A DNA stretch of 52,602 bases, taken from positions 1-52,602 of IMG/VR virus record IMGVR_UViG_3300001683_000042. The stretch is one strand, 5' to 3'. This document shows positions 29,546-52,568 of the stretch, piece by piece. The translations under genes and the position numbers were made by a program. Below the pieces are notes generated by a model. It was given only the letters and a program-made list of their open reading frames with translations, was not told where the DNA came from and did no database searches. This stretch comes from a virus. Numbering within the stretch: position 1 is the first letter of the stretch; every line of letters starts with the position of its first letter.

Positions 29546-29554
29546 AACTTACTA

Positions 29555-30580
29555 TTATACAGTCAGATTGTTATAAATGTCAACCAATTTCTTATTATCT
29601 ATATGGGTTGATTTGATAGTAGAAAGTTCATTTAATACTATTTGATCGACAGATTCAAATTTGGGAATCTCACCATCGGACCAATCTATTTCGTGTTCAT
29701 CTTCTCTTTCTGGTAATAATACTATTTCTCGTAAACCATATTCATCGGTAAACACTTGTTTAATATGTGTTGCTTCTTCATATGAAATATCTACGTCTAA
29801 TGTTACTCTTATATATGTTTTTGGTTTTAAATATTTTTCTGGATTGTCAATTAATTTACTAAGGTTAATTGTTTTAAAAGAAGGAGCATTAGGCCATGCA
29901 GTATATTGTGGTTCTTCTCCCCATTCTAGTATCATCATTCCCCTATCATCTTGCCATGTATCAGAATAATTATGAGGAAACGTATTGCCTATGTATATAA
30001 CATTTTTTTGTTGTTGGCGACTATGAAAATGACCAGAGAATACATATTCCTGATTTTTAAAATGTGTTTTTTGCAATTCTCCTGTATCAGGCATGGCCAC
30101 AAGTTGATTCATTTGAAATCCACCTAATTCAAAATGACCAAATATATACCTAGATTTTATACCAGGCATTTCCTTCCATTCATCTTGAACCAACCAAGGT
30201 ATTATGCTTACATCGCCTTCTGTAAAAATATCATTTATAATGTGTACATTATCATATAAACTACCAAATGCTACACTATTAATTTCACGTTTATCTCTAT
30301 AAAACAAATCATGGTTTCCCATTATTACAAAAACATTTGTAAATGCCTTAGATAAAAATTCTAAATTTGACATTGTATAATTCATAGTGCTAACATTAAT
30401 CGATGCTCTATGATGATGCCAATCACCTAGAAATATGCAAGTTTCACATTTTGCTTTTTTGGCTTGTTTAATAAACCATTTAACAAATTCTTCACAATCT
30501 GTGTTATGTGTTCTACTATTATTTCTTAAACCAAAATGTATATCTGTAAAACATGCTACTTTTTTAAATAGATTATTCAT
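29555..30580 (-). CDS. 47: Recombination endonuclease subunit gp47 (Mre11/SbcD-like)
   Basis: A 341-residue calcineurin-like metallo-nuclease. The five metal-binding motifs are visible in order: FTDIHFG (Asp13, His15), FLGDWHHHR, IMGNHDLFY, FGHFELGG and FSGHFHSRQ. These bind two metal ions in Mre11-type enzymes and hydrolyse DNA ends. It partners with gp46. The gene overlaps the upstream 2OG-Fe(II) oxygenase gene by four bases and is followed after nine bases by gp46, so they should be co-expressed. The C-terminal 60 residues resemble the capping region. Confidence 0.95.
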   Translation of the reverse strand: MNNLFKKVACFTDIHFGLRNNSRTHNTDCEEFVKWFIKQAKKAKCETCIFLGDWHHHRASINVSTMNYTMSNLEFLSKAFTNVFVIMGNHDLFYRDKREINSVAFGSLYDNVHIINDIFTEGDVSIIPWLVQDEWKEMPGIKSRYIFGHFELGGFQMNQLVAMPDTGELQKTHFKNQEYVFSGHFHSRQQQKNVIYIGNTFPHNYSDTWQDDRGMMILEWGEEPQYTAWPNAPSFKTINLSKLIDNPEKYLKPKTYIRVTLDVDISYEEATHIKQVFTDEYGLREIVLLPEREDEHEIDWSDGEIPKFESVDQIVLNELSTIKSTHIDNKKLVDIYNNLTV

Positions 30581-31329: not shown

Positions 31330-32210
31330 TACCCTCCTAACTCTGTCATTTCTGCTACTCGTTCAGCCAGGTCTGCTACTCGTTCCATTCGTTCTTGGTC
31401 GCTCTCGCCCTCACGTTCTCTTCGTGTTGCTTCTGTTTTTTCAGCAATAGCAATCTGATGGGCCATTTGTCTAGTATAGCTAGGATTGTGACCTGCTTTT
31501 TCGAGTAAGTCGTCGCGAATATTTTGACTACGTTTTTCTACATTTAATACCCGAGTAAAGGAATTTGTTATTGCGGCAGTATAATATGCAAATGGATTTT
31601 GACTTTTACTTTCATCAAATTGTAATGAAATTTGTGATAATTGCAATAATGCTTGTGAGCGCATCTCGTCTACATAAGTATATCCTCGCCAATTTGATCT
31701 TGTGGCATATCGTTCTGTAAGTTTCATACACATATTAGCAAGTTCATCTGTCATGTAACCGTGGGTTACACAAAACTTGCCGGTTGATATTGTACCTTTC
31801 CAATGTGATCGTGCTACTTCTTTATATCTGTTTTTATTTGGATTCCAAACAAGATGTTTCCAAGGAGGAAAATTTACTTTAGCATGATGATCTGCTATTG
31901 TTTTCGGTTTATTTTTTCGTCCTGGTTCTAATGGAATATGTGAAAAATCATATACTCTATATACTATATCAACAGGATCAACGTCTACTTCTACATCTTT
32001 ATCAACTTGTAATCGTTTTTTACGATTAGTAATTGCTTCTTCTTTATGTTCGTCAGTTAATTCGTCTATATCTATTGTGTTTATGTGCTCTGCTACAATT
32101 AAATCATAATCTTTAAATTTATCATGAGTATATGCACTATATGTTTGTTTTGAAAAATGTATTTGTTTTAAAATATCTTTATTATTTAGGTAATTTCGTT
32201 TTGCAGCCAT
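31329..32210 (-). CDS. 55: Late-transcription sigma factor gp55
   Basis: A 293-residue sigma-70-superfamily protein that would redirect host RNA polymerase to late promoters. The conserved stretch runs YMTDELANMCMKLTERYA, NWRGYTYVDEMRSQAL and FDESKSQNPFAYYTAAITN, followed by SFTRVLNVEKR, which corresponds to sigma region 2 in gp55 homologues. It is longer than T4 gp55 (185), with an extended N terminus and a charged helical C terminus. I do not see the short hydrophobic clamp-binding end known for T4 gp55. The gene is driven by a strong sigma-70-type promoter, as expected for an early regulator. The late boxes throughout this window are its likely targets. Confidence 0.88.
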   Translation of the reverse strand: MAAKRNYLNNKDILKQIHFSKQTYSAYTHDKFKDYDLIVAEHINTIDIDELTDEHKEEAITNRKKRLQVDKDVEVDVDPVDIVYRVYDFSHIPLEPGRKNKPKTIADHHAKVNFPPWKHLVWNPNKNRYKEVARSHWKGTISTGKFCVTHGYMTDELANMCMKLTERYATRSNWRGYTYVDEMRSQALLQLSQISLQFDESKSQNPFAYYTAAITNSFTRVLNVEKRSQNIRDDLLEKAGHNPSYTRQMAHQIAIAEKTEATRREREGESDQERMERVADLAERVAEMTELGG

Positions 32211-36148: not shown

Positions 36149-36781
36149 ATGGCAACATATAAAACACAATTTGGAGAAAAACCACCAGTAGGTAGTTACG
36201 CAGGTTTTGGAGAAAGACCCGATAAGGATGGTAATTGGTCTTTTTCTAGCACCGATGATATTGGAACTAATATTGAAATAGCAAGATTACATCCTAAGTT
36301 ACGAAACTTTGCGGCAACTTTTGTTAAAAACGCAAAAGCTCATTCAAGTGTTTATGTTATTAAAATTGTAACAGGTGTTCGACAATTATCTAAACATAAA
36401 GAATTACGTAAAAAAGATACACTTAAACACAATTATAAAGATAGTCATCATTTAACTGGTACTTCATTTAGAATAGAAGTTGTTAGTATTAATAGTGTTT
36501 CAAAAACAAAATATTTGCACGAGACCGATGGATCTATAACAACTACAAATGAAGCACATTGGAAAGAAATAGGACAACTTGCAGAAACTCAAGGATTTCA
36601 TTGGGGTGGTAATGGTGGAGATAATTTATTTCAACAATATGCCAATGCCAATTATGGTAAAGGATGGAATAAAAATTATTTTGAATTTAGAGATTGTGGG
36701 CGACGTCGGGGAGCAAAAAAATATTGGTCTAGAGTTAAAGATGCAGACCAATGGTTTGAATTGGGGTGTTTACCGGAATGA
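36149..36781 (+). CDS. Degenerate M15 (VanY/endolysin-like) peptidase in the baseplate cluster
   Basis: A 210-residue protein with the outline of an M15 D-Ala-D-Ala or L-Ala-D-Glu peptidase. HPKLRNFAATF, IVTGVRQLSKHKELRKK, and SHHLTGTSFRIEVV (residues 99-112) follow the family's SxHxxG pattern, and FHWGGNGGDN and WNKNYFEF match the end. Of the zinc ligands, His101 is kept. The Asp expected at 108 is Arg, and the His expected in the HFE triad is Tyr177. It is therefore probably not an active zinc peptidase and may serve as a structural or peptidoglycan-binding component. It has AAAGGAG before the ATG and overlaps gp5 (ATGA). Confidence 0.6.
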   Translation: MATYKTQFGEKPPVGSYAGFGERPDKDGNWSFSSTDDIGTNIEIARLHPKLRNFAATFVKNAKAHSSVYVIKIVTGVRQLSKHKELRKKDTLKHNYKDSHHLTGTSFRIEVVSINSVSKTKYLHETDGSITTTNEAHWKEIGQLAETQGFHWGGNGGDNLFQQYANANYGKGWNKNYFEFRDCGRRRGAKKYWSRVKDADQWFELGCLPE

Positions 36782-38016
36782 TAACAAAAGAATTTACAAA
36801 AATGACGGAAGCCGAAGGAGCTGGGGTACAGATTAAATCTATGCCTTATATATATAGGGCATATATTAAACGATCATTAGATAAAGCCAACATGGGTAGG
36901 TTGCAAGTTTATATTCCAGAGATTGCACATCCTACTAGAAAAGATACTTGGATTAACGTTAGATATTTGTCCCCGTTTGCTGGTGCATCTAATCCATATT
37001 CAATAAAGCCAATGTCTACAGCATTTAAAGATACCCAAACTGCTTATGGTTTTTGGATGGTTCCGCCCACAATAGAAACAGAAGGTTTAGTAGGTTTTAT
37101 TAATGGTGATATAAATGAAGGCGTTTGGTTAGGATGCTTCTTTCAAGAAAATGTTAATTTTACTGTACCAGGTATTCCATCTGCAATGACATATGAAGGA
37201 CCAGCACCAGGCGCAGAAAAAAACAAATATGATAAAAAACCAGAGCTCCGCCCTGCTCATAAACCAATGAAAGAGGCTCTTGAAACACAAGGACTTCTTG
37301 GCGGAGAAAACGGTGACCACAATGATGCGATTAGAGGAACCTGTACTAGTGGTGCTAAGAGAGAAAGCCCTAGTAAAGTGTTTGGAATATTAACTCCAGG
37401 ACAACATCAATTTGTAATGGACGACGGCGACGATGCTGGGGTTGATAAAGGTATACGATTACGAACTGCTGGTGGTGCTCAGGTACTACTTAATGATGAA
37501 AAAGGTATAGTTTACATTATTAATAAACGAGGTACAGCATGGATAGAACTTACCAATGACGGTAAGATGGATGTGTTTTGCACAGATGATATATCGTATC
37601 ATTCACTTAAAGATTTTAATTTACATGTAGATGGTGATATTAATATACAATCAAAAGGAAGTATAAAAATACGAGCAGAAGGAGCCGACGGAATTAATAT
37701 AAATGCTACTACTGGTGATTTTCAAATGAAGACTGCTGGTAATTATATTATACAAGCAGATTTAGACGGAAATCTTATAACAGCAGGTGGAACAGTAGTA
37801 AAGGCCGCAAGATTAGATTTACAAGGTGGTAGTGCAGTAGAGGCAGAGCCGCCTGAAATGATTTCATTATCAGACAATGTCAGTGTATTAGATAGTGTTT
37901 GCCCACGAGTACCAGAACATGAGCCTTGGTTAGGACATGAAGATAAAAGATTAATACCACTAGGCGAAGGTTTAAAACCTGGATTTGCTGCCGGTGGAGG
38001 ACTAGGGATTAATTAA
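36778..38016 (+). CDS. 5: Baseplate central spike, gp5-like without lysozyme domain
   Basis: A 412-residue spike protein. I start at 36778 (MITKEFTKM), where ATG overlaps the previous stop as ATGA; a GTG four codons upstream is less likely. The N-terminal OB fold is visible from about residues 20-130 (YRAYIKRSLDKANMGRLQVY; TEGLVGFINGDINEGVWLG). A VgrG/gp5-type repeat region follows (GGAQVLLNDEKGIVYIINKR, then VDGDINIQSKGSIKIRAEG), forming the needle beta-helix. The lysozyme domain that T4 gp5 carries between these parts is absent; a lysozyme-like domain instead begins the next gene. The C terminus is Gly-rich (GLKPGFAAGGGLGIN). Confidence 0.85.
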   Translation: MITKEFTKMTEAEGAGVQIKSMPYIYRAYIKRSLDKANMGRLQVYIPEIAHPTRKDTWINVRYLSPFAGASNPYSIKPMSTAFKDTQTAYGFWMVPPTIETEGLVGFINGDINEGVWLGCFFQENVNFTVPGIPSAMTYEGPAPGAEKNKYDKKPELRPAHKPMKEALETQGLLGGENGDHNDAIRGTCTSGAKRESPSKVFGILTPGQHQFVMDDGDDAGVDKGIRLRTAGGAQVLLNDEKGIVYIINKRGTAWIELTNDGKMDVFCTDDISYHSLKDFNLHVDGDINIQSKGSIKIRAEGADGININATTGDFQMKTAGNYIIQADLDGNLITAGGTVVKAARLDLQGGSAVEAEPPEMISLSDNVSVLDSVCPRVPEHEPWLGHEDKRLIPLGEGLKPGFAAGGGLGIN

Positions 38017-41000
38017 TGGCAACTAGATATAAAGAATTACCGATAGAGATTAACTATGATGATCAATCATTATCGAAACAATATTCGTCTACTCCTGTAA
38101 ACACAAAATCGGCCTCAATAAGTGATGCCGGTCTTGATTTTATGTTAGGCAAAGAATTATATCGCGGACATCGCCATTGGGATGGTAAAAAATATGTAAT
38201 GGGTTATGGTTATAGCGGTAGTGCCTTTTCTAATGGTATTACCGAAACAAATGCATATAGATTATGGATAACAGATGTTACTAAGGCACAAAACAATCTT
38301 CGCAAACGACTAAACAATAGTCCAGAATTTGTCTTACAACACCAATGGGATGCTTTGGTTAGTATGTTTTATGATACCGGTTCAATAGATTATACTACAA
38401 CCGAAGGATATGAATTTGATTTAATTTATTTCATTCAAAAAGGTACCATTGATCAAGTATCATCTGCAATACAAATAGATAATAGAAAACCTTCTCGTAG
38501 AGTTGCAGAAGCATCATTATTTAGATTATGCAATTATGGTAATATGAAACCTAGGTCATGGTTGCGAAATGAAGGCATTCAACATATAAGAAAAAACTAT
38601 CTTGCTCTTAAAGACAAAGATGGTAATATTGATAAAACTGCCCAACAACAAGCACAATATGCTTATTATAAAGAAGTTAACAAATTTATAAAAGATATAT
38701 CAGAAATTGATAGGCGCAGAATTATTAATTTAATAAAACAAGAAACAGATACTACAATTGATTCTAGTACTCCTATTGAACAGTATGTTGTTAGAACTAC
38801 TCCTGAATCGGAATACAAAAAGTTAAGTACATTAATTACAACCACAACAACTACCGAAGCACCGTTTACTAGTTTACCTATTACGTATACCCAATCAGAA
38901 TCGGGTTCTACTGCTGGCGGAGGTGGCGGTGGGTCAAGTGAAGGCGGCGGCACATCTACACATTCACATATTGTTGCACAATGGTTGCCACCAGGCGGTG
39001 CAGAAGGACAATTTATAAACCATTTGGGTTCGTGGTCAACTCCTATAGGTTCTGGCGATAATTCATTTAATGGTGTATTTGCAAATTTAACTGAGAGACC
39101 GACAACTATTGCTGGGTATGGTATATTAGATGCATTTATAGGAAACTATAATGATTTAACAAATAAACCCGATTTGTTTAGTGGCAGTTATGATGATTTA
39201 ACAGAAAAGCCAAGTAATTTTACTGGAGCATCTTCATCTACAAGTGGAGCATATGGATTTGTTCCAAGTCCTCTAGCCGGCGATCAATTAAAATATTTAA
39301 GTGCCACAGGTATTTGGTCAGTACCACCTAATACAACATATGTTAATTCAGATTGGAACCATGATCTATTAACTAATTTTTCGGAAGACGAACATATAGA
39401 TTGGACACAAGATCAATCAGGGATTCCTAAAGAAATACATGTAAGCAATTATGCTGGCGGGTCTCCTTTTGGAGGAGCAACATCTAGTACAGACGGAACA
39501 GCAGGAACAGTACCTGCACCGGTAGCAGGAGATGAGGTTAAATTTTTAAAAGGTGATAGAACTTGGTCTGTAGTTGCTAGTTTTGGAGGGGCAACATCTA
39601 GTACAGACGGAACACCAGGAACAGTACCTGCACCAGTAGCAGGGGATGAGCTTAAATTTTTAAAAGGTGATAGAACTTGGGCAGTAGTTACTAGTTATGA
39701 TCAAACGTTAAACACAACAGACGATGTAACATTTGATGACTTAATTGTTAATGGTAATCTTACAGTTAACGGAACAGAAACAATAGTTAATACTTCTAAA
39801 TTAGAAGTAGAAGATCATACTATAGAAATAGGCAAAGTTGCTACTCCGACAAATGATACAGCCGATGGCGGCGGTATTATACTCAAAGCCGCAAATGATA
39901 AAACTATTACTTGGAGCAAAACCACAGACATGTGGGGCTTTAATACCTCTGTAAATATCGGTGGACTAGTTCATATATCAACTGAACAAGGTTCTACTCC
40001 AGCCCTACCTGCAGACGGAGACGGCGGATATTTTTATACAAAAGCAGACGGAAAACCATATTGGATAAGTTACGAACAACTTGAAATAGATTTAACCGAC
40101 ACAGGATCTTTAACAGGATTATCTGATACCACAATAACAACGCCTTCGTCAGGTCAAGTATTAACATGGAACGGAACTGCCTGGATAAATCAAGCAAGCT
40201 CCGGTGGTGGTGGTGGTGGATCTCCACTAACAGTAGCAGAAATAAACGACCCTAGTTCTAATGTTAGTGTAGCATCTGTAAGTCAAATACAATTTGATGT
40301 AGACAGCGGATTTGCTTTAACTGATTTAACTGGTGGTGTTGTTAAAGTTGCAATGGAAAGCACCTTTAAAAAGTGGAATGTATCAGGACAAGATACACTA
40401 ATAGCAACAGCAGTTGACGAAGTTACATTAGCACAAGGTGCCGGTATAACATTAACTACAACAGCACCACCAAGTACCACACAAACTTATTATGTAAAAT
40501 TTAGTAGTGGCAAATATATTTTTGAAGATGCAACAGGAATTGTTGGAGCAGGTAATGCTATTACATCTTTTAATTTTGTAACTGGTGGTACTTATATTTT
40601 TGATACAAGTAATTCAACATTAGTACCCACGTCTACACAATTTGAACTTTCAACAACAACAGACGGAACACACAACTCAGGTACAAGATATGCAAATGGT
40701 ATTACATATGGTGATTCGGGTGGTAGAATTGCTGATGGTACCGCAGGAGCATTTTTACAAATAAAAGGAAAGAATGATACTGCTACAACTTTATATGATT
40801 ATAATGAAGATTCGAGTGGTTCAGGAGATGGTTCTGGAGCGACTATAACTGCTCAACAAAAAACACTAACAATTGCATCAACTTCGAGCGGAACTTTAGC
40901 TGGTTTGTCCGATACAACTATTACTAATGCCCAGGATGCTCAAATTTTAACATATAGCAGTGGAAGTTGGATTAATGCGGCACTCGGGGGGATTGATTTA

Positions 41001-43493
41001 ACAGATCTATCTGTAACAAATGTAACTGCCAATGCAGTATCAACATTAACATATAATAATCAAACAGGTGTTTTTACATATACACCTTTAGCTGAACAAG
41101 ATCCAATATTTCTTGCTTCACCTGCATCAAATGTAACTACAACCAAAATAACAAATTGGGATACTGCCTATCTATGGGGAGACCATGATGCTGAAGGATA
41201 TTTAACATCGTATACAGAAACCGATCCTGTATTTGGTGCTCATGTTTCATCAGGAATAACTCAACAAAAAATTACTAATTGGGATGCCGCACATGGATGG
41301 GGGGATCATGCCTCTGCAAATTATTTCGACATAGATGATGACGATTTAGCTGACATAAGAGATGTTGATTTATCAAGCATGAATACTGGTACTAATGGAT
41401 ATTTTTTAAGATGGAATTCTACTGCTCAAAAATGGAAAGAAGAAATTATTGTTATACCAACAGTATTAGATGATTTAACTGATGTAGATACAACTACAAC
41501 AACTCCAGTACTTAATCAAGTATTAAAATATGATGGTACAAACTTTACTCCTCAATTAGATACTGGACAAAATACATTAGCAGGATTAACAGATACAGAT
41601 GTTACCGGTGTATCAAATGGTAAAATTTTATCATATTTAAATGGTACTTGGGAATTAGATGATCCACCATTAACAGGCGCCACAACTATAACAGGGCTAA
41701 ATGATACACCTGCAAATTACACAAATGCCGCAGGGTATTTTGTAAAAGTTAAATCAGATAGTACAGGTATAGAATTTGTTAGCGAATCATTTTTAACAGA
41801 TATAACTGCCGAAAATTTAACTGATTTAATTGATGTTACTCCTGTGTTATCTGCCAATAATACAGATATCATGTATTACGATCATCCTTCTACTTCATTT
41901 AAATGGAAAAAATTTGAACTTAAAAATTTATCAGATTTAGATATACCAGGTTCATCGGAAAACTTACAAGGATTATATTATAATCATTCTACTACTTCAT
42001 TTAAATGGAGAGATTATAAATTAACAGCTCTATTAGATGTAGCAAGTTCGGCGCAAGCAGATAACAAGAAAGTACTTTATTATGATTATCCAACTAATTC
42101 ATATAAATGGAAAGCATTAACTATATCACAAATAATAGATGTAGATACTCCTGTACAAAGCAACGATGGTAATTTCTTACAATATGATTTTACAAATAGT
42201 AAATTTATTTGGGCAGATACAGGAAATGTAAGTGTTAGAAATGAAGGCATAATAATAACAAATGCTGTAGGAAATCTAGATTTTGTAGGTGATGGTGTAA
42301 ATTCGACTGCAACAGGTGATGCTGTTACTATAACTATAGACGGAAATCCAACATTTATAGGACAAACAGATTCGCCATCCACATATACAGGTAGTGTAGG
42401 GAAAATGTTAATTGTTAACCCCAATGAAACAGGAATACAATTTGCAGAGATTGGTGATGTTAATACAACATTTCTTCTACTAACCGATGTCATTCCTACA
42501 TCGTTTACTGGAGGAGAAAATAAGTTAATAACGGTTAACTCAGGCGGAACCGGACTTATATTCACAGATAAAACTTTTATTAGTTTAGATGATACTCCTA
42601 GTACAATGACTAACCAAGGTGGAAAATATATTGCTATTAAAAATAATGCGACAGGATTAGAGTTTGTTAGTCCTCCTGTTCAAATTGATACATTTTCCGC
42701 ATTACAAGACACTCCTGGTATATCAACAGGAGATTCAGGAAAATATATAAAAGTTAATACAGGCGGAACTGCATTAGAATTTGTTAGTGCTCCGGTAGAT
42801 GTTACAACATTTATTGGATTAACTGATACACCTAGTACACTAAGTGGCCAAACAGGAAAATATCTAAGAGTTTCTACAAGTGGTACAACTTTAGAATTAA
42901 CAGATGCACCTGCTGGTACACTTTTAGAATTAACCGATACTCCTGTTTCTTATGTAGGTTCTACGGGTTATTTGTTAACAGTTTCTGCACAAAATACAAT
43001 TCAATTTACAAATAAAACCGCATTAGGATATGTTGGAGAAACTGATTTAACAAATTATACAGTTGGCAATATTATTAGTACAGATAATGTAATTGAAGGA
43101 AATACAAATAAATATTATACTGAGGCTCGTGTTGATACGAATATTGGGAGCAAGAATGTAAGTGCTCTTGCTGATGTCGATTATGTAAATGCTCCAGTTA
43201 ATAATGATGTATTAATATGGAACGCGACAAACGGAAAATGGGAGCCAGGTGTTGCTCCGAATACTTCATCGGGTGAAGCAAATACTGCATCTAATGTTGG
43301 TACAGGGTTAGGTGTGTTTAAACAGAAAGCAAGCCTTGATTTAGAATTTTATAAACTTTCAGCAGGAACAGGTATTTCTGTAACACAACAGGGTAATAAT
43401 ATACAAATAGGTAACCTAGCAGTCAGTGGACCAGGCGGAAGTGCTTATATAGAAGAAGATGATGCAATTGCATTTGCTATTGCATTCGCATAA
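38016..43493 (+). CDS. Giant tail fibre with N-terminal T4-lysozyme-like domain
   Basis: An 1825-residue fusion. Residues about 35-195 resemble T4/gp5 lysozyme (GH24): GKELYRGHRHWDGKKYVMGY places Glu47 and Asp56 nine residues apart as in T4 lysozyme (Glu11, Asp20), and FRLCNYG follows. The Thr26 and His31 equivalents appear to be Val61 and Tyr66, so activity is uncertain. A Ser/Gly/Thr linker near residue 300 (TAGGGGGGSSEGGGTSTHSH) leads to over 1400 residues of fibre repeats: GDxxxFLKGDRTWxVV twice, and many L-DT/DL units (LSDTTITTPSSGQVLTWNGT). The end is DDAIAFAIAFA. It starts inside the gp5 stop (TAATG), consistent with the lysozyme having moved from gp5 to the fibre. Confidence 0.8.
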   Translation: MATRYKELPIEINYDDQSLSKQYSSTPVNTKSASISDAGLDFMLGKELYRGHRHWDGKKYVMGYGYSGSAFSNGITETNAYRLWITDVTKAQNNLRKRLNNSPEFVLQHQWDALVSMFYDTGSIDYTTTEGYEFDLIYFIQKGTIDQVSSAIQIDNRKPSRRVAEASLFRLCNYGNMKPRSWLRNEGIQHIRKNYLALKDKDGNIDKTAQQQAQYAYYKEVNKFIKDISEIDRRRIINLIKQETDTTIDSSTPIEQYVVRTTPESEYKKLSTLITTTTTTEAPFTSLPITYTQSESGSTAGGGGGGSSEGGGTSTHSHIVAQWLPPGGAEGQFINHLGSWSTPIGSGDNSFNGVFANLTERPTTIAGYGILDAFIGNYNDLTNKPDLFSGSYDDLTEKPSNFTGASSSTSGAYGFVPSPLAGDQLKYLSATGIWSVPPNTTYVNSDWNHDLLTNFSEDEHIDWTQDQSGIPKEIHVSNYAGGSPFGGATSSTDGTAGTVPAPVAGDEVKFLKGDRTWSVVASFGGATSSTDGTPGTVPAPVAGDELKFLKGDRTWAVVTSYDQTLNTTDDVTFDDLIVNGNLTVNGTETIVNTSKLEVEDHTIEIGKVATPTNDTADGGGIILKAANDKTITWSKTTDMWGFNTSVNIGGLVHISTEQGSTPALPADGDGGYFYTKADGKPYWISYEQLEIDLTDTGSLTGLSDTTITTPSSGQVLTWNGTAWINQASSGGGGGGSPLTVAEINDPSSNVSVASVSQIQFDVDSGFALTDLTGGVVKVAMESTFKKWNVSGQDTLIATAVDEVTLAQGAGITLTTTAPPSTTQTYYVKFSSGKYIFEDATGIVGAGNAITSFNFVTGGTYIFDTSNSTLVPTSTQFELSTTTDGTHNSGTRYANGITYGDSGGRIADGTAGAFLQIKGKNDTATTLYDYNEDSSGSGDGSGATITAQQKTLTIASTSSGTLAGLSDTTITNAQDAQILTYSSGSWINAALGGIDLTDLSVTNVTANAVSTLTYNNQTGVFTYTPLAEQDPIFLASPASNVTTTKITNWDTAYLWGDHDAEGYLTSYTETDPVFGAHVSSGITQQKITNWDAAHGWGDHASANYFDIDDDDLADIRDVDLSSMNTGTNGYFLRWNSTAQKWKEEIIVIPTVLDDLTDVDTTTTTPVLNQVLKYDGTNFTPQLDTGQNTLAGLTDTDVTGVSNGKILSYLNGTWELDDPPLTGATTITGLNDTPANYTNAAGYFVKVKSDSTGIEFVSESFLTDITAENLTDLIDVTPVLSANNTDIMYYDHPSTSFKWKKFELKNLSDLDIPGSSENLQGLYYNHSTTSFKWRDYKLTALLDVASSAQADNKKVLYYDYPTNSYKWKALTISQIIDVDTPVQSNDGNFLQYDFTNSKFIWADTGNVSVRNEGIIITNAVGNLDFVGDGVNSTATGDAVTITIDGNPTFIGQTDSPSTYTGSVGKMLIVNPNETGIQFAEIGDVNTTFLLLTDVIPTSFTGGENKLITVNSGGTGLIFTDKTFISLDDTPSTMTNQGGKYIAIKNNATGLEFVSPPVQIDTFSALQDTPGISTGDSGKYIKVNTGGTALEFVSAPVDVTTFIGLTDTPSTLSGQTGKYLRVSTSGTTLELTDAPAGTLLELTDTPVSYVGSTGYLLTVSAQNTIQFTNKTALGYVGETDLTNYTVGNIISTDNVIEGNTNKYYTEARVDTNIGSKNVSALADVDYVNAPVNNDVLIWNATNGKWEPGVAPNTSSGEANTASNVGTGLGVFKQKASLDLEFYKLSAGTGISVTQQGNNIQIGNLAVSGPGGSAYIEEDDAIAFAIAFA
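39468..39680 (+). repeat. Direct repeat, about 99 bp, two copies
   Basis: Copies at 39468-39566 and 39582-39680 (period 114 bp) are nearly identical at the DNA level and encode GGATSSTDGTxGTVPAPVAG plus a following DExKFLKGDRTW. They lie in frame within the giant fibre gene, so the repeat number could change by recombination without breaking the frame. Confidence 0.85.
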
Positions 43494-43503
43494 TGGATAA
43501 AAT

Positions 43504-43836
43504 ATGGCCAGTTTTTTTAAAAATGCAAGTCATACAATTGCTGTAGCAGATACAGATGAAACAATGTATACAGCCAATCAATTAAACCAAGTTTCGGCAA
43601 TTATTCATGGTTTATATATTGCTAATAAACATGCTACATCAAATGTACAAATTACATTGAAAGTGTATGACGATAGTGCTACTTCAGATATGGTAATATT
43701 ATCTAAGGTACCAATACCACCAAACACAACGTTGAGTTTGGATAAATCTATTAATTTAGAAGCCGATGATTCATTAAAAGTGGCGGCAACACACACAGAT
43801 TGCGAAATATTTGCAAGCGTTTTGGAGAGAACATAA
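43504..43836 (+). CDS. Small virion protein, unrecognised beta-type
   Basis: A 110-residue protein. The layout is a compact beta domain: an early TIAVADTDETMYTANQ, a hydrophobic IIHGLYIANK, then VQITLKVYDDSATSDMVILS, IPPNTTLSLDKSINLEADDS and a terminal CEIFASVLERT. Proteins of this size and pattern are common between fibre genes in marine myophages, and I infer a virion component. Nothing points to an enzyme. Its stop overlaps the start of the dehydrogenase-fibre gene as TAATG, so the two are made together. Confidence 0.6.
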   Translation: MASFFKNASHTIAVADTDETMYTANQLNQVSAIIHGLYIANKHATSNVQITLKVYDDSATSDMVILSKVPIPPNTTLSLDKSINLEADDSLKVAATHTDCEIFASVLERT

Positions 43837-45914
43837 TGTATTATGGTCAAAGATATGAAGCGGTTTTATCCGCAGTTGACTACGATGATATACAAAATAT
43901 TCCTGACTTCCAGTATGATTCATTTACTGGTCCAGGAACTTCATTTACCCTAACAACAGGTTCTCCAAAAGATGTTGCGGCATTGGATGTAACAATAGAT
44001 GGAGTAACACAAAAACCCGGAGTTGATTATAGTATAACAAATTTAGCAAGCGGAACACAAATTGCATTTAGTTCGTCATTAGAAGCAGGCGAAACTGCTG
44101 TTGTAGTATATAGAGCAATACCAGGATCAAGTCAAACATTAGCATATACAGAACAATTTACCGCTGTTCAAAATGATAATTCTCCTGTATTAGGAGGAGA
44201 TTTAAATTTAAATGAAAACAAAATTATATCTGCCACAAATACCGATTTAAAAATAGAAGTAGGAGCAGGCGGCGAATTAAAATTAAATGAGCAGACATTT
44301 CCTTCAGCAGACGGTGTATCTGGTCAATTTTTAATGACAGATGGTACAGGTGCAATAACATGGCAATCACCACCAGGTGCAACCGGCGGTGAAGCAAATA
44401 CCGCAAGTAATGCAGGAACCAATCTAGAAGGAACAGGCATATTTAAACAAAAAAGTAATATTAATTTCGAATTTAAAAGATTAATAGCAGGCGATGGTAT
44501 TGTTATTAGTGATGAAGAAAATTTAATAAGAATACGAACACCTGACTATCAACTTAATAAATTGGACTATGGTATAATACCTGCAGATTATGGCGATTTA
44601 GGAACAGCAACAGCAGAACAAGATTATGGTTTTGTAGCAGATGATACAGCCGTTAACTTAACTGAAATTTTGGGTCTATCGGCGAATCTAGAATCACCAA
44701 GTGCTTTAACAAACAATCACTTTGATGATAGAATGTATATTGCTGAACAAACAGGTAAAATTAAAGTATATAAAGGTGAGGTTGTTTTGCAAACACCATT
44801 GCTAGATATGACATCAACAACTAATTCAACACCTGTTATGCTTCCTTTGGCTACTTCATATGATGAAAGAGGATTATTAGGTTTAACATTTCATCCAGAC
44901 TTTGAACATAATGGGTGGTTTTTTGTTAATTATTCTGCGGCAAAATCGGTAGGTACAGATCATCCATATATTGGTATAGGCATAGATCACGAAAGTATTA
45001 TAGCAAGATATACTGTTACAGATCCGATAAATGATGATGTTGCAGACCCTACGTCTGGAATAATTATTATGCGATTTGATCAACCTGCTGTCAATCATAA
45101 TGCTGGATATATGACATTTGGGCCCGATGGTTATATGTATATAGGAACAGGCGATGGCGGAGCAGGGCCTCAACAACCAGCACCAGAACACAATGCTCAA
45201 ATGAGAACTAGTCCATTAGGAAAAATTTTAAGAATAAATGTGGATATAGGTTCTGCAGAATATGGGAATTATGCTATACCATCTGATAATCCATTTAAAG
45301 ATCATGCAGAGTTTAAAGAAGAAATTTTTGCATTTGGATTTAGAAATCCATTTGGAATGAGTGTAGACCACGTAACAGGAAAATGTTGGGTTGGTGATGT
45401 TGGACAATATGAAATAGAAGAAATTAGTATTGCTAAAAATGGAGGCAATTATGGATGGAATCTTATGGAAGGTACCTTCTTATATGATGTTGAAAAAGCA
45501 ATTGAGATTGCTACTCTCGCAGGTACAGATGTTGAGACATATTTGAATGGCTTAGAAAAACCTGTAGCAGAGTATCCACATTTTAATTCCCCTAGGGGAA
45601 TTAATGGACTATCAATTATAGGTGGATTTGTTTATAGAGGATCAGTTTGTACAGAATTAATAGGAAAATATGTTTTTGCTGATTGGACTACTGATTGGTC
45701 CAATCCTGAAGGAAAAATATATTACTTAAAAGAGCCGATACCAGATATATATCAAATACATCAATTAAACCCATTAGCAATAGATTTTGGTGTACAGTTT
45801 GTTACGGGATTTGGCGAAGATGTACATAAAGAACTATATGTTATAACACGATTAACATATGATCCGACAGGCCCCGGAAAAATTTATAAACTTGTAGGAC
45901 AAACAGTTGCATAA
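43836..45914 (+). CDS. Virion protein fused to a PQQ glucose/sorbosone dehydrogenase-like beta-propeller
   Basis: A 692-residue fusion. I start at 43836 (MYYGQRYEAV), within the previous stop; an ATG 12 codons upstream lies in that gene. Residues 1-100 are a fibre attachment-like module (FTLTTGSP; VTIDGVTQKPGVDYSI). Around 184-240 is the GEANTASNAGTN module shared with neighbouring fibres. From about 275 on is a GSDH/HHIP-type six-bladed propeller: ERGLLGLTFHPDFEHNG, NHNAGYMTFGPDGYMYIGTG (His near 421 matches the catalytic His), SPLGKILRINVD, FGFRNPFGMSVD (Arg near 500), GGNYGWNLMEG and GKYVFADWTTDW. Those conserved residues leave sugar oxidation or PQQ binding possible; sugar recognition alone is equally possible. 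Confidence 0.85.
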   Translation: MYYGQRYEAVLSAVDYDDIQNIPDFQYDSFTGPGTSFTLTTGSPKDVAALDVTIDGVTQKPGVDYSITNLASGTQIAFSSSLEAGETAVVVYRAIPGSSQTLAYTEQFTAVQNDNSPVLGGDLNLNENKIISATNTDLKIEVGAGGELKLNEQTFPSADGVSGQFLMTDGTGAITWQSPPGATGGEANTASNAGTNLEGTGIFKQKSNINFEFKRLIAGDGIVISDEENLIRIRTPDYQLNKLDYGIIPADYGDLGTATAEQDYGFVADDTAVNLTEILGLSANLESPSALTNNHFDDRMYIAEQTGKIKVYKGEVVLQTPLLDMTSTTNSTPVMLPLATSYDERGLLGLTFHPDFEHNGWFFVNYSAAKSVGTDHPYIGIGIDHESIIARYTVTDPINDDVADPTSGIIIMRFDQPAVNHNAGYMTFGPDGYMYIGTGDGGAGPQQPAPEHNAQMRTSPLGKILRINVDIGSAEYGNYAIPSDNPFKDHAEFKEEIFAFGFRNPFGMSVDHVTGKCWVGDVGQYEIEEISIAKNGGNYGWNLMEGTFLYDVEKAIEIATLAGTDVETYLNGLEKPVAEYPHFNSPRGINGLSIIGGFVYRGSVCTELIGKYVFADWTTDWSNPEGKIYYLKEPIPDIYQIHQLNPLAIDFGVQFVTGFGEDVHKELYVITRLTYDPTGPGKIYKLVGQTVA

Positions 45915-45923
45915 GGAAATAAA

Positions 45924-48776
45924 ATGAGTACAGAAGTAAAATTTAGAAGAGGAAGTACTACCCAACATGCTACATTCACGGGAGCGTTTGGCGAGGTAAC
46001 AGTAGATACTGATCTTAATACATTACGAATACATGATGGTTCCACTGTAGGTGGTCATAGAATACTATTACATAGCGAATTTGTTGCAACAGGAGCAGGT
46101 ACTGTAACAGAAATAGATACAGGCATAGGGCTAACTGGCGGACCAATTACTTCATCAGGTACATTGGAATTAGATTCTGCTACACAAACAACCCTTACAA
46201 ATTCACAAACTGCTTATAGTTGGGGCGACCACGCAACTTTTAGTTACCTAACTAATATACTCAGTCAAAATGTAGGTAATTTGGTAAACGTTAATGACAC
46301 AGGAATAGCAGATGGCCAAATACTTCAGTATCAATCTAATGTAAGTCAGTATTTACCTATAGATTTACCAACTGGAGGAGGAGGCGGGGGAGGTTCTGCA
46401 GATTTTACAGGACTTACAGATACTCCAAGTAACTATACAACTGAACAATATAAAATTTTAAGAGTCAACACAAATGAAGATGGATTAGAATTTGTAGAAA
46501 ATACAGGAGAATCAAACTTAGCATCTAATAGAGGTGCTGGAGAAGGTCTAGTATTTTATGCAAAAGATAATGCTACCGGCGATTTACAATTTAGAAGTAT
46601 AAGAGCTGGTACAGGAATGTCTATATCACAAACATCTAATGAAATTACAATTGATGCTCCGAGTATAACTTATACTGCCGGAACAGGATTAGACGTAAAC
46701 AATAATGAATTTTCTATTGAACCTGGTTATATAAAAACTTCAGGCGATTATACTATAGGTGGTGACATAACATTTTCAGGAAGCACAGTATTTCAACAAC
46801 AACTAACATATGGAAGTCAAATTGTTATAGATCACCCAGCCGCTGTTGATAAAGAAATATTTTTTAGAGGTAAAATAATCGATGCTTCAAATGATTTTGT
46901 AGAAATGTCTAATGCTACTACATCAACTTCTCAATTATCGCCTTGTGTTAGAGGTGGTGTTGAATCTAGTACATCTATTGCTAGTATGAGTGTAATAGGT
47001 GAAGTCCCAACTGCAAAGGATACCGGAATTTATCCTATGATGGATTTTGTAGTTAAAAAAGGTGGTGATGTTACTGATTATTCTTATGGAGTAGAGGCGG
47101 CAATTGCAGTAAGACCGTTGTTTGATTTTAAAAACTATACTACCAGTGTATTAACAATAAAACCAACCGGAACAGAAATAGCCGCAGGATTAACTGTTTT
47201 TGGTGGTACTTCAATTCCTTATAATTTAAAATTTAAAAATAGTTTTTCATTGAAAAGTGGATTAGAAAGTGCAATCGACGCTTCAACTTATCCTGGTTGT
47301 GTTGGTGTTGCAAGTAATGAGTTATATTTTTCAGCAACTAGTAATAGTGGAGAATGGTTAAGAGTAGCAAAATCAACAGAAGTTCCATCAGGCGTATTTT
47401 ATAAAATTACAGCAGATGCTGGTGGATCTGCAGAAGCAACAAGTATTACCGATGAACTTACAATTGAAGGTGGTACTGGCATAGATACCTTAAGAGCAGG
47501 AAATGTTATTACAATTACAAATACTGGTAGCGGTGGAGGTGGTGGAGGAACCACACAAGATTTATGGGCAACTATAAATGCTGATGCCGGAACGGCAACG
47601 GCAAATAGTTCTACCGATATATTCACAGTTACCGGCGGAACTAATATTACAACTAGTATTACAGGAGACGAACTTCTAATTGATTCATCTTTTGCCGCAG
47701 ATATATTTAAATCCGTTGCTGTTGCAAACGAACCTACTATTATAGCGGCAGGATTAACAGATACATTAACATTTATTGCAGGCACAAATGTTACAATAGA
47801 TACTAATGCAACTACCCAAAGTATTACAATTAATTCAACTGCAACAAGCGGAGGCGGCGGAACAACAACAACCGCATTTGGTACAATTAGTGTTCAAGGT
47901 CAGACAGATGTTGTTGCAGATAATGCCACCGGAGCAGGCGATACGTTAACATTAATTGCTGGAACTGGAATTGCTTTATCAACAGATAATTCGGCTGATA
48001 GTATTACAGTTACAAATTCTTCTCAAGCCACATCGGCATTTTCAACTATAGCAGTATCAGGACAATTAGATGTTCAAGCAGATTCGGCTGCAGATACATT
48101 AACATTAGAAGCAGGTTCTAATATTACATTAACCACTGATTCCGTAACAGATAAAATAATAATACATTCGGCCGCAGTAAGCCAAGACACATATAAAAAT
48201 ATTGCAGTATCGGGACAACTTACTCTTACTGCAAATCAATCTGATGATACCGTAACTTTTGTAGAAGGTACGGGCGTGACTATTACTACAAGTTCTGCAA
48301 ATGATACTGTTACCTTTGCGGCGGCGGCGGCAACATTTGAACCAAAAACCGTTGCGGCTAGAACATTTTTTGTTCAAACACCATCATATCATTATGTAAT
48401 GTCAAATACAGATTTTGGGGTAGATGACATTCCGGTAACAGGTAATAATTTAAGCAACGGTACCGCAGTAAGTCCTACAATATACGTTATTGGAGGGCAT
48501 ACATATGCATTTACATTAGATACCACAGGGCATGGTTTTATGATAAAAACAGCCGCAGGTGAAGGAATTACAGGACAGCAATCCGTGTTTAATACAGGAT
48601 TACGACATCTTGATACTTTAGGTAATTGGACATACGGCAACACGGCTCAAGGAAACGTTTCGGGTACTTTATTTTGGACAGTACCTCAAGTAATAAGCGG
48701 AAATTATATATATCAATGTATTCTTCATGGAAACATGTTCGGTACAATAGTAGTTATAGATGTAACAACATTATAG
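45924..48776 (+). CDS. Tail fibre with Mtd-like N terminus and cupredoxin-like C terminus
   Basis: A 950-residue fibre. Residues 1-50 (TEVKFRRGSTTQHATF, FGEVTVDTDLNTLRIHDG) match the N-terminal domain of the phage major tropism determinant (Mtd). A Gly-rich linker (GGGGGGGSADFTG) and the GESNLASNRGAGEGLVFY module follow. Several repeats of the form A(G/D)xxTxxxDxxxDTLTxxxGTN...TI occupy residues about 480-800. The last 150 residues contain GHGFMI (His870), then YQCILHGNMFGTIVV with Cys932, His935 and Met938, the ligand set of a type-1 copper site. This is a candidate metal-binding tip. RBS AAGGAAAT precedes the ATG. Confidence 0.75.
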   Translation: MSTEVKFRRGSTTQHATFTGAFGEVTVDTDLNTLRIHDGSTVGGHRILLHSEFVATGAGTVTEIDTGIGLTGGPITSSGTLELDSATQTTLTNSQTAYSWGDHATFSYLTNILSQNVGNLVNVNDTGIADGQILQYQSNVSQYLPIDLPTGGGGGGGSADFTGLTDTPSNYTTEQYKILRVNTNEDGLEFVENTGESNLASNRGAGEGLVFYAKDNATGDLQFRSIRAGTGMSISQTSNEITIDAPSITYTAGTGLDVNNNEFSIEPGYIKTSGDYTIGGDITFSGSTVFQQQLTYGSQIVIDHPAAVDKEIFFRGKIIDASNDFVEMSNATTSTSQLSPCVRGGVESSTSIASMSVIGEVPTAKDTGIYPMMDFVVKKGGDVTDYSYGVEAAIAVRPLFDFKNYTTSVLTIKPTGTEIAAGLTVFGGTSIPYNLKFKNSFSLKSGLESAIDASTYPGCVGVASNELYFSATSNSGEWLRVAKSTEVPSGVFYKITADAGGSAEATSITDELTIEGGTGIDTLRAGNVITITNTGSGGGGGGTTQDLWATINADAGTATANSSTDIFTVTGGTNITTSITGDELLIDSSFAADIFKSVAVANEPTIIAAGLTDTLTFIAGTNVTIDTNATTQSITINSTATSGGGGTTTTAFGTISVQGQTDVVADNATGAGDTLTLIAGTGIALSTDNSADSITVTNSSQATSAFSTIAVSGQLDVQADSAADTLTLEAGSNITLTTDSVTDKIIIHSAAVSQDTYKNIAVSGQLTLTANQSDDTVTFVEGTGVTITTSSANDTVTFAAAAATFEPKTVAARTFFVQTPSYHYVMSNTDFGVDDIPVTGNNLSNGTAVSPTIYVIGGHTYAFTLDTTGHGFMIKTAAGEGITGQQSVFNTGLRHLDTLGNWTYGNTAQGNVSGTLFWTVPQVISGNYIYQCILHGNMFGTIVVIDVTTL

Positions 48777-48788
48777 GAAAATTTTTAA

Positions 48789-51700
48789 ATGAGTAGAACG
48801 GTAGTAACAGGCAAAACATTTGACACAAACCCCGATATTTTAGGAAATGCAACATTTTCTGGAGTAGAAGGGTTAACTATACCTATTGGTTCGACTGCAG
48901 AACGCCCTATCACCCCTTCGGAAGGTGTTATACGATATAATGAAACCACAGGTAAATTTGAAGGATATTCTAAAGATCCCAATGATAATACTCAAACACT
49001 TTGGGGATCTTTAGGCGGTGGAGCATTATTAGATTTAAGTGATATAGATGAATCAGGATTAGTAAATGGTAATTTACTTAAATGGGATAGTGTTTTAACT
49101 AAATTTGTTCCTACCGTCGGCGGAGCTATAGATAATATACTTGTTTCTGGACAGCCGAATTTAACAATACCAGCAACTGGCGATCTTGAATTCGTTTCTG
49201 GCGCAGGAATTCAATTAACAACTGATCCAAGCAATGGTAAACTTACCATTGCCTCTACTACCCAAGCAAATTTATCTGTAGATCTTTTTACAGGTGACGG
49301 CAGTACTAACGAATTTACATTAACAAGAGTTCCTCCATCACCTACAGATATACTTGTATTTGTTGATAGTTTATACCAAGCACCTTCATCATATACTATT
49401 GTAGGTACCAATCCTGCTAAATTAGTTTTTCCAGAAAATGTCCCAAATTTATTAGATATTACTGTTACATTTCTTAATTTAGATACTATACAAACAGTAG
49501 TTCAAGATGGAAGCATAACACCTGCAAAATTATCAGCAAGTACATATTACATAGATACATTTTATGGTGATGCAAGTACCAAAACATTTACTTTATCTCA
49601 ATTAGCAAGCACACCAAATCAATTATTAGTAATAATAAATGGAGTACTTCAAGAACCAGGTGCAGATAATGCTTATTCGGTTACAGGAACACAAATTACA
49701 TTTACAACTGCTCCTTCATATAATGCTCTTATAAAAGTAAGATTTTTGGGCGCAACATTTAACACGGCTAGTTCTATATCTCCAGATGCAGTTGGCATAC
49801 CTGAAATGGATATAAGTGGATCAGGAACAACAGGACAAGTATTAGGATTAGGATCATCGGGTGGTTTAATTTGGATATCACCTGACTCTGCAGATTTTAT
49901 ATATAACAACCAAACATTTACCAATGCTACTAGTATTGAATTTAATGTTGCATCTGGGTTTACTTTAACTGAAGGGAATCCTGGTGTATTAACAGTAGGA
50001 TTTGGTGATTATCTCACTACAGTATCTGTTACCGGTCAACCTACTATTTCCATAGATTCTTCGAGAGAATTAGAATTTATTGCAGGTCCTGGGGTAGGCA
50101 TAACAACCGACAATACTGTAGATGATAAAAAAGTTACTTGGTCAGTTTCGGTAGGAGCAATTACTGAAGATATATTGCCTGCAACTACATCTACTTACGA
50201 TTTAGGTTCTACTAGTAACGTATGGGATACAGTACATACAAATACTGTAGATTTAGGAAATATAACATTATCAGAAATTATAGGCGCTTTATTAATTCCT
50301 CATAGTCTTAAATTTGGTGGATCATATCCAATTGTATTAACAGCAACAGCAAATGGTTTAGAATTAGAAAAATTAACTATTGGTACTCCTGCTCAAATTT
50401 TAGCAGGTGAGCATGTAACATTAACTGCTACTACTGGTAAGTTAAATTTACCTGCAGAGAATATAGGTTTACCAGAATTAGATGTAAGCAATAGTGGAAC
50501 AGCAGGACAATATTTAAGTACGACAGGTAGCGCCTTACAATGGACAACAGGATTAACCGCAGTAACAGCAGGCACGGGATTACTGCTTCAAGGCGGCGGG
50601 ACTACTATAACATCTACAGGAACACTAATAGTAGACCCACAAATTTCCCAGGATGCTCTGCAAGGCGTTGTTGCATATGGTTGGGGGGATCATACTAGTA
50701 TAGGATATTTAACAAATATTACATCCGAAAATTTAACCGATTTAACAGATGTTAACACAGGTACATTAGGCATAGTTCATGATGGTTGGGCATTAGTATG
50801 GGACCATTCTACTTCAAAATTTATAGTAGCAAATACGACAGGTAACTGGTTATCAGGTACTGTAGCAGGTTCAATTTATTATGGTGGCGGACGAGTAGGT
50901 GTAGGTACAAGTACTCCATTAGGATTGCTTCATATTAATCAACAGGAATCAAGTCCATCTGATCCGTTAATTATACAGGACGGAGCATACAGACCTTTAT
51001 ATATTCCTGCAGGAGGTATGTTAACTTCCCAAACAGGTATACATTTAGAAACAGATTATGCTAGTTTAAATCCACCTACTGCGCCTACTACAGGAGGAAT
51101 ACTTTATTTTAAAAATGGGTTGCTACATTTTGTTTCAAGTACTTCACCAGAACAAATAATAATTACAGGCGCAGAAACCGCATTACCGAATGTTACTTCA
51201 ATTGGTACTACTGCATCACTTAAATTACCAACTGGTACAACTGCACAACGTGGCCCAACAATTCAAGGCGGTATTAGATACAGTACTGAATTAGCCACAT
51301 TTGAAGGATATGATGGCTCTAATTGGGGATCACTTGGCGGAATTATAGACGTCGACCAAGACACCTACATAACAGCAGAAGCAACCACTGATTCAGATGA
51401 TTTAGATTTTTGGACAGCAGGTACTAAACGAATGACAATAGACCAAACCGGTGCTGTTACAATTACTGGTACAGATGCTCTTGTTCTTCCTGCTGGTACA
51501 GATGCACAACGTAATACTGCTATACAGGGTGGATTTAGATATAACACAGATACACCCGGATTTGAAGGATATGATGGAACCGAATGGGGAGAAATAGGTG
51601 GATCTGCATCAGCATTAATAACTGAAACAACTACGATGCTAAGAGGACCATATGCTGAAACTATGCTTTTTTCAGATGCTTTTACCCTCGGAGGAGATAT

Positions 51701-52568
51701 TACATTAACTGATAATCTTTTCTTAGCAAAACTAGGCGAAGACGGTAATGATATTACCCTTTCAGATGATGGTAATTCTAGAACAATAACTGGTCAAGGA
51801 ACGATTGTGCCTGGAGCATTGTTTGATAGCTCATTTGCTATAGCCACTACCGCACAACCAAATATAACACAAATTGGAACTACTGCATCAATTAAAATAC
51901 CAACTGGTACAACTGCTCAAAGAGGAACTCCTTTAGCTGGCGGAATTCGATATAATACTACATTGGGTTCTTTTGAAGGTTATAGCGGATCTAATTGGGG
52001 ATCACTTGGCGGACTTATTGATATCGACCAAGACACCTACATAACAGCAGAAGCAACTATAGATAAAGATAGTTTAGATTTTTGGACTGCTGGCGTACAA
52101 CAAATGAGTATAGATTCGGCAGGTATTGTTAGTCTTTTTTCAACTGCATCAATAAAAGTACCAACTGGTACAACCGCACAACAAGGAACTGCAACAACTG
52201 GCGCATTTAGATTTAATACAACAGATACTAATTTTGAAGGATATGACGGAAGTGCTTGGAAAGCGGTCAAAGGCGTTACTGGAATAAATGACAACTCAAC
52301 TTCTGTAGCAATAACTATTGATTCTTCTGAAAATGTAGGCATCGGTATTGCAAATCCAGGAGCTTACAAACTTTATGTAAATGGTGATATTTACTGTGAT
52401 GATATTAGTACTTCTGATATAAAAATGTGCAATGATAGACCAAATCATCCTGGTAATGAAATCGATGGCACAAAAGGTTCATGGACGTTTCAGGAAGGAT
52501 CAGAAAATATGTACTTAATAAATAGGAAGAGCGGAAAACGTTACAAATTAAAGCTAGAAGAGGTCTAA
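48789..52568 (+). CDS. Tail fibre with repeated TGTTAQR/GFEGYDG modules
   Basis: A 1259-residue long-fibre-type protein. At least five copies of the module (S.K.PTGTTAQRG....GGIRYN....FEGYDGSNWGSLGG) are recognisable, the first near residue 30 and the rest after about residue 795. Between them are beta-type segments common to phage fibres (VDLFTGDGSTNEFTLTRVP; FYGDASTKTFTLSQLAST) used for trimeric stems. The C terminus (NVGIGIANPGAYKLYVNGDI, then CDDISTSDIKMCND, ending SGKRYKLKLEEV) looks like a fibre end, but without the usual S74 autoprotease. AGGAAAA ribosome-binding site. Likely a long tail fibre used for host attachment. Confidence 0.75.
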   Translation: MSRTVVTGKTFDTNPDILGNATFSGVEGLTIPIGSTAERPITPSEGVIRYNETTGKFEGYSKDPNDNTQTLWGSLGGGALLDLSDIDESGLVNGNLLKWDSVLTKFVPTVGGAIDNILVSGQPNLTIPATGDLEFVSGAGIQLTTDPSNGKLTIASTTQANLSVDLFTGDGSTNEFTLTRVPPSPTDILVFVDSLYQAPSSYTIVGTNPAKLVFPENVPNLLDITVTFLNLDTIQTVVQDGSITPAKLSASTYYIDTFYGDASTKTFTLSQLASTPNQLLVIINGVLQEPGADNAYSVTGTQITFTTAPSYNALIKVRFLGATFNTASSISPDAVGIPEMDISGSGTTGQVLGLGSSGGLIWISPDSADFIYNNQTFTNATSIEFNVASGFTLTEGNPGVLTVGFGDYLTTVSVTGQPTISIDSSRELEFIAGPGVGITTDNTVDDKKVTWSVSVGAITEDILPATTSTYDLGSTSNVWDTVHTNTVDLGNITLSEIIGALLIPHSLKFGGSYPIVLTATANGLELEKLTIGTPAQILAGEHVTLTATTGKLNLPAENIGLPELDVSNSGTAGQYLSTTGSALQWTTGLTAVTAGTGLLLQGGGTTITSTGTLIVDPQISQDALQGVVAYGWGDHTSIGYLTNITSENLTDLTDVNTGTLGIVHDGWALVWDHSTSKFIVANTTGNWLSGTVAGSIYYGGGRVGVGTSTPLGLLHINQQESSPSDPLIIQDGAYRPLYIPAGGMLTSQTGIHLETDYASLNPPTAPTTGGILYFKNGLLHFVSSTSPEQIIITGAETALPNVTSIGTTASLKLPTGTTAQRGPTIQGGIRYSTELATFEGYDGSNWGSLGGIIDVDQDTYITAEATTDSDDLDFWTAGTKRMTIDQTGAVTITGTDALVLPAGTDAQRNTAIQGGFRYNTDTPGFEGYDGTEWGEIGGSASALITETTTMLRGPYAETMLFSDAFTLGGDITLTDNLFLAKLGEDGNDITLSDDGNSRTITGQGTIVPGALFDSSFAIATTAQPNITQIGTTASIKIPTGTTAQRGTPLAGGIRYNTTLGSFEGYSGSNWGSLGGLIDIDQDTYITAEATIDKDSLDFWTAGVQQMSIDSAGIVSLFSTASIKVPTGTTAQQGTATTGAFRFNTTDTNFEGYDGSAWKAVKGVTGINDNSTSVAITIDSSENVGIGIANPGAYKLYVNGDIYCDDISTSDIKMCNDRPNHPGNEIDGTKGSWTFQEGSENMYLINRKSGKRYKLKLEEV
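51200..52125 (+). repeat. Duplicated fibre-stem cassettes within the 48789 gene
   Basis: Two cassettes of roughly 250 bp, near 51200-51456 and 51876-52125, share long DNA stretches, including an identical run that begins CGACCAAGACACCTACATAA at about 51353 and 52024. They encode DQDTYITAEAT and a following DxDFWTAG. A third, partial copy lies between them. Confidence 0.75.

Follow-up and report, generated by a model that had tools for sequence, protein, structure and literature searches.

Genes of the tail-fibre locus

The window, by which we mean the whole stretch of viral DNA analysed here (52,602 nucleotides), is a linear virus fragment of 52.6 kb. Its major capsid protein shares 74% identity with the one from Sinorhizobium phage Phosso and 66% with its counterparts in PA5oct-like phages, and another head gene also matches the PA5oct-like group; these matches place the virus in a jumbo T4-like myovirus lineage. 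The open reading frame that concerns us (43836-45914) sits amid a series of genes for tail-fibre and baseplate proteins, as judged from Pfam and PHROG matches:

36766-38016, plus strand: baseplate hub/tail lysozyme-like gene, the first of the tail-fibre run (phrog_13211, 2.3e-37)
38016-43493, plus strand: long fibre protein, 1825 aa (phrog_9729 tail fiber, 1.6e-47)
43504-43836, plus strand: small virion-locus gene directly upstream, 110 aa (phrog_1276), kept in all six relatives
43836-45914, plus strand: fibre-propeller gene, 692 aa, with an ATG start and an open frame; same fusion in contigs L003-L008
45924-48776, plus strand: downstream fibre protein, 950 aa, with an Mtd_N N-terminus and a gp9-like C-terminus
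48789-52568, plus strand: another long structural protein of the virion, 1259 aa (phrog_6005 virion structural protein, 6.6e-76)

The ATG of the fibre-propeller gene shares one base with the stop codon of the upstream gene (TAATG), with GGAGA directly 5' of it, and the 110-aa product of that upstream gene is 82-88% identical in the six relatives (L058-L063). The downstream fibre protein matches phrog_677 (baseplate wedge tail fiber connector, 6.6e-25) as well as Pfam Mtd_N (2.9e-13; 45924-46050, at its N-terminus), and its gene was recovered whole in four relatives (59-72% identity), with its start in a fifth. The 1825-aa fibre protein carries an N-terminal lysozyme-like domain (Pfam Phage_lysozyme, 2.8e-5).

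A GSDH-type propeller joined to a fibre module

The product of the fibre-propeller gene divides into two parts:

43836-44546, plus strand: N-terminal fibre/anchor module, residues 1-237 (phrog_2710, a paralogous stretch, relatives' identity, dN/dS)
44547-45911, plus strand: C-terminal GSDH/HHIP-type beta-propeller, residues 238-692 (Pfam GSDH, AlphaFold2, Foldseek, identity, dN/dS)

A preliminary description of this DNA had read the gene as a GSDH-family propeller joined to a phage fibre module, and the domain searches agree. Pfam GSDH (PF07995), the glucose/sorbosone dehydrogenase family, matches residues 296-556 at 1.6e-36, with 126.7 bits where the gathering cut-off is 25; the similarity of this predicted protein to GSDH is far beyond chance. 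The signature motifs listed in that description, HNAG..FGPDG, GTGDGG, SPLGKILRI, GFRNPFGM and NYGW, all occur and in that order. Residues 1-237 have fibre-type matches only, and these are weak (phrog_2710 tail fiber, 1.1e-5); one part of this module, residues 143-233, is 40% identical (2.2e-10) to the C-terminal end of the previous fibre protein in the series. The propeller module is ordered from about residue 266, and the protein stops at the last propeller strand, with C-terminal EGF repeats absent from both the sequence and the AlphaFold2 model.

The same fusion, in one reading frame, is present in six other IMG/VR contigs (L003-L008), making seven in all, which rules out an assembly join of two genes, a possibility that the preliminary description had raised against its own reading. 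Base composition is also even throughout the fusion region. No module swaps were found at the locus: searches with the N-terminal module and with the genes beside it brought up the same propeller-bearing viruses, plus L069 (IMGVR_UViG_3300004369_000006), a different virus that matched the downstream fibre gene distantly and in part (31%, residues 540-798).

Predicted fold and nearest structures

AlphaFold2, run on residues 238-692 with a 38-row alignment, returned a confident propeller (pLDDT 85.1, pTM 0.87). With this model Foldseek ranked the animal Hedgehog-interacting protein (HHIP) first (7pgm, 6.5e-27, 24% identity), followed by soluble glucose dehydrogenase (sGDH; 5min, 4.5e-20) and then by aldose sugar dehydrogenases (3a9g, TMt 0.84). 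These matches, together with the pTM, support a predicted six-bladed fold of the sGDH/Asd class, a class also represented by sGDH 1c9u and the aldose sugar dehydrogenases 2g8s, 3a9g and 3das. The structural comparison with glucose and aldose sugar dehydrogenases thus bore out the expected likeness to six-bladed glucose dehydrogenases, with HHIP ahead of them. HHIP is the nearest solved protein by sequence as well (2e-23 in a single-sequence search and 1.3e-63 in a profile search), with the whole propeller aligned, and dehydrogenase sequence matches are limited mainly to roughly the first four blades.

Although HHIP (7pgm, 2wfx, 3ho4) is the best match in both sequence and fold and shares the E-R motif and the His with the window propeller, it has H-D at R503-N504 and lacks both the W of the D-W pair and an equivalent of N422. 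It also has EGF repeats, an N-terminal CRD and Hedgehog ligands of its own, and no fibre module. Among the top solved Foldseek neighbours are HHIP complexes with heparin and with a sulfated-sugar mimic (7pgm, 7pgn). The propeller-bearing C-terminal part of HHIP binds heparin, heparan sulfate and chondroitin sulfate with low micromolar affinity, at sites on the surface of the propeller and the EGF repeats that exclude the central pocket (PMC8660895); because these heparin sites are on the surface, HHIP is an analogy only and no proof of binding in the pocket.

Uncharacterised cellular GSDH proteins from Thermoplasmatota, Desulfobacteraceae, Bacteroidota and Verrucomicrobiota (L009-L039) are 33-47% identical to the window propeller. 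They have the same pocket signature, D-W included, and likewise lack the PQQ-carboxylate ligands of sGDH, but they stand alone or are fused otherwise, and their reading frames showed no phage fibre module. The sole strong viral matches in BFVD (3.6e-30 to 4.5e-18) are GSDH-domain proteins of Pithovirus/Marseillevirus LCPAC/LCMAC, which, unlike the window phage, are giant viruses of eukaryotes. Three of the Pithovirus LCPAC proteins (A0A481Z6G2, A0A481Z5E4 and A0A481Z663) are GSDH-type propellers near the window fold.

Pocket residues and the PQQ question

The sequences of sGDH and YliI were verified against their PDB entries and aligned with the propeller family (38 members). The residues of the pocket and its surroundings are these:

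44865-44870, plus strand: E344-R345 pocket motif, at the position of sGDH Q76 (E344 = Q76); invariant in viral copies
45096-45098, plus strand: H421, equivalent to sGDH His144, the catalytic residue; present in all 38 family rows and in every viral copy
45342-45347, plus strand: R503-N504, equivalent to sGDH R228-N229 (quinone oxygens); in all viral copies, H-D in HHIP
45396-45407, plus strand: D521-V522-G523-Q524, with G523 aligned to sGDH G247; invariant in viral copies
45579-45581, plus strand: H582, invariant in viral copies; tentatively a counterpart of AA12 His539
45681-45686, plus strand: D616-W617 in the signature GKYVF[AG]DW, near the place of sGDH K377; invariant family-wide

In sGDH the site of G247 binds Ca. 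In likening the propeller to a PQQ sugar dehydrogenase, the preliminary description had noted that the catalytic-type His and Arg are retained, and the alignment to sGDH upholds this for H421 and R503, with N504 besides. The name 'PQQ sugar dehydrogenase' itself fares less well. While the GSDH fold and the catalytic-type residues stand, the PQQ-carboxylate ligands of sGDH (K377, R406, R408) have no counterpart in any of the 38 aligned family members, viral or cellular; in the last two blades the alignment may be off by a few residues, and there is still no conserved Lys or Arg at the aligned positions. The NCBIfam model for PQQ-dehydrogenases (TIGR03606) scores only 59.7 bits against a cut-off of 434.55, Pfam at E <= 0.01 returned GSDH alone and no match to TrAA12 (PF22807), and HHIP is the closest solved protein. 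Given the missing ligands and the TIGR03606 score, the label 'PQQ sugar dehydrogenase' is not established for this propeller, and a canonical PQQ enzyme was rejected on the same two counts.

A fungal quinoprotein pyranose dehydrogenase of family AA12, however, binds PQQ without K377, through R273, R430, N431, H363, H539, H560 and R621 (PMC6881789), and it remains PQQ-dependent even though it, like HHIP, lacks several PQQ residues (PMC4133262). Since the cellular relatives also lack the carboxylate ligands and AA12 dispenses with K377, there is still room for enzyme activity. A weak profile alignment to AA12, made through an AA12-like bacterial protein, keeps the equivalents of H363, R430 and N431 and perhaps pairs H539 with H582, while R273, H560 and R621 were not found in it. 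An equation of R345 with AA12 Arg273 was considered and dropped, as the spacing and an AA12-like locus (L070) suggest that Arg273 lies in an earlier strand.

Conservation of anchor, tip and pocket

Between the window and its fibre-clade relatives, the N-terminal module is 75-91% identical and the propeller 60-68%. Within this clade dN/dS is 0.01-0.24 for the N-terminal module and 0.08-0.39 for the propeller, both well under 1 and indicative of purifying selection. These comparisons show the familiar combination of an anchor that stays fixed and a tip that changes; as in tail fibres and tailspikes, a structural N-terminal module bears a variable tip within a tail-fibre locus.

When 25 distinct viral rows from four virion-protein contexts are compared, 61 of 423 propeller residues (14%) never vary, among them E344, R345, H421, N422, R503, N504, D521-Q524, H582, D616 and W617. 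Because the pocket is invariant in the viral copies even though R503-N504, N422 and W617 are lost in HHIP, these copies appear to keep a pocket, beyond a mere scaffold. On the other side, 19 of the 92 positions that the cellular proteins conserve are altered in one or more members of the fibre clade, including some in a loop beside the pocket, and in the window this loop is off the family pattern, with Q replacing D at 446.

The propeller in other predicted virion proteins

Contig scans found the GSDH propeller in three further structural-protein contexts besides the fibre fusion. In L046 it lies in a 484-aa protein with a different, unrelated N-terminus; in L047 it is C-terminal in a baseplate-wedge-like protein at least 2,390 aa long; and in L048 and its relatives it is inside baseplate-wedge proteins, mostly of 2,300-3,100 aa. 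Outside the propeller, L047 and L048 match phrog_17744, a baseplate wedge subunit. The 28 contigs examined with a wedge-embedded propeller form 18 clusters at 95% identity. The wedge-embedded form is in its own right a widespread architecture, found in at least 18 distinct uncultured phages (L048, L074-L099). The idea of a virion-borne propeller, put forward in the preliminary description, gains from the presence of the same domain inside the predicted baseplate-wedge proteins of other phages, and by these family matches the propeller is a recurrent virion module across four virion-protein contexts.

In a tree with cellular relatives, the propellers of the window, L003, L004, L007, L008, L046 and L047 group together with full support, and those of the wedge type make up a clade of their own. 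A single viral clade was not rejected (p-AU 0.207), so we claim neither one nor several acquisitions.

Comparison with known phage proteins

Propellers on the fibres of phages and injection systems are already in the literature. In K1F-type phage endosialidase tailspikes, for instance, a beta-propeller on a phage tail protein acts on a host glycan; that propeller is a sialidase-type hydrolase, of a different family from the GSDH type of the window. In the literature searched, we found no virion protein described as bearing a GSDH/HHIP-type propeller. Likewise, 50,697 cultured phage records held no clear member of the propeller family and, for cyanophages, no propeller match; the few matches, weak and partial, came from a faecal record without annotation and from four Acinetobacter 'phage' records in which the gene is annotated as yliI. 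The yliI-like genes of these Acinetobacter phage MD-2021a records (CAKLQH020000008.1, CAKLQF020000012.1 and two more) are probably chromosomal.

Proposed role and alternatives

The reading that we favour, and hold to be moderately probable, is that this is a structural tail fibre whose propeller tip adsorbs to the host by way of a surface glycan in the conserved pocket, with catalysis left aside. In this uncultured jumbo myovirus the gene product would serve as a structural tail fibre, or as something like a short tailspike: residues 1-237 would attach the protein to the tail and build the shaft and residues 238-692 would form a six-bladed GSDH/HHIP-type propeller displayed at the tip; in adsorption this tip would engage the host surface, its central pocket holding a sugar of the surface glycan. 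We infer the virion location, the glycan binding by the pocket and the adsorption role, the first and last of these from gene context and family matches. As the pocket is intact in many uncultured phages, the propeller probably grips, and might oxidise, a host-surface sugar, plain binding being the more likely of the two. Cellular family members conserve the pocket residues as well, however, and these residues may be partly structural.

Alternatively, the protein could be a working virion oxidoreductase that, with PQQ and Ca2+ or a different cofactor bound in its pocket and H421 acting as the base, oxidises host-surface or capsule sugars and so aids adsorption or alters the receptor. That H421, R503, N504 and G523 correspond to H144, R228, N229 and G247 of sGDH and are invariant in the viral copies speaks for such an enzyme, as do the loss from HHIP, a binder, of the Arg-Asn pair that these copies keep, the precedent of AA12 enzymes, which bind PQQ without K377 through a partly different ligand set (PMC6881789; PMC4133262), and the tentative pairing of H582 with AA12 His539. 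Nevertheless we consider it unlikely: there is no counterpart of sGDH K377, R406 or R408, an acidic residue (D616) is invariant near the place where basic residues hold the PQQ carboxylates, TIGR03606 falls far under its cut-off with a TrAA12 Pfam match absent, the pocket-side loop of the window differs from the family (446 D to Q), and a PQQ enzyme would require an external cofactor and an electron acceptor. A broader version, to which we give decidedly little credence, is that fibre tips and wedge proteins of uncultured myoviruses oxidise the sugars of the host surface upon contact, by means of PQQ or an unrecognised cofactor in a pocket unlike both known quinoprotein types. If true, a virion oxidoreductase would be the redox-acting counterpart of phage depolymerases.

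We rank behind both of these, as improbable, a protein-binding module or purely structural spacer as in HHIP, with pocket residues kept only for folding. HHIP, the nearest solved structure, does have a protein ligand, and a position inside baseplate-wedge proteins suits a structural or assembly role; yet the viral copies keep the Arg-Asn pair, the Asn that follows the His and the Trp of DW, all lost from HHIP and none needed by a spacer, and the tip diverges faster than the anchor. Finally, an assembly chimera, or a host-derived metabolic gene adjoining a fibre gene, is rejected as next to impossible: although GSDH/AA12 genes have been reported as viral metabolic genes, with viral AA12/sorbosone dehydrogenases classed as auxiliary metabolic genes (PMC6460857), here a single open frame lies beside the same neighbours in seven contigs, with even composition.

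That fibres and baseplates use this propeller repeatedly, with the pocket strictly conserved, suggests that these phages have a host-surface target or a chemistry in common, which could be tested with one recombinant domain. Moreover, viral 'sugar dehydrogenase' genes catalogued as metabolic helpers may be structural proteins.

Other features of the window and its relatives

The C-terminus of the downstream fibre protein (48294-48776 in the window; 8377-8856 in L064; 8365-8844 in L067) looks cupredoxin-like, with an H, C-x2-H, M pattern of the type-1 copper kind invariant in three relatives. A PDB sequence search with this region returned nothing, and its structure model is poor (pLDDT 43). 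It is related to the gp9 C-termini of cyanophages, in which the propeller is unmatched. On these three grounds a redox pairing of the propeller with its neighbour was set aside, and the resemblance is recorded as an observation only. L047 has two cupredoxin-like stretches (YYYCTAHSEKAG and YYYCHNHAAMGGQM) N-terminal to its propeller in the same polypeptide. Elsewhere in the window, positions 27812-30580 encode nuclease subunits like SbcC and SbcD, and near position 32000 the GC and AT skews flip sign where the genes turn from mostly minus to plus.
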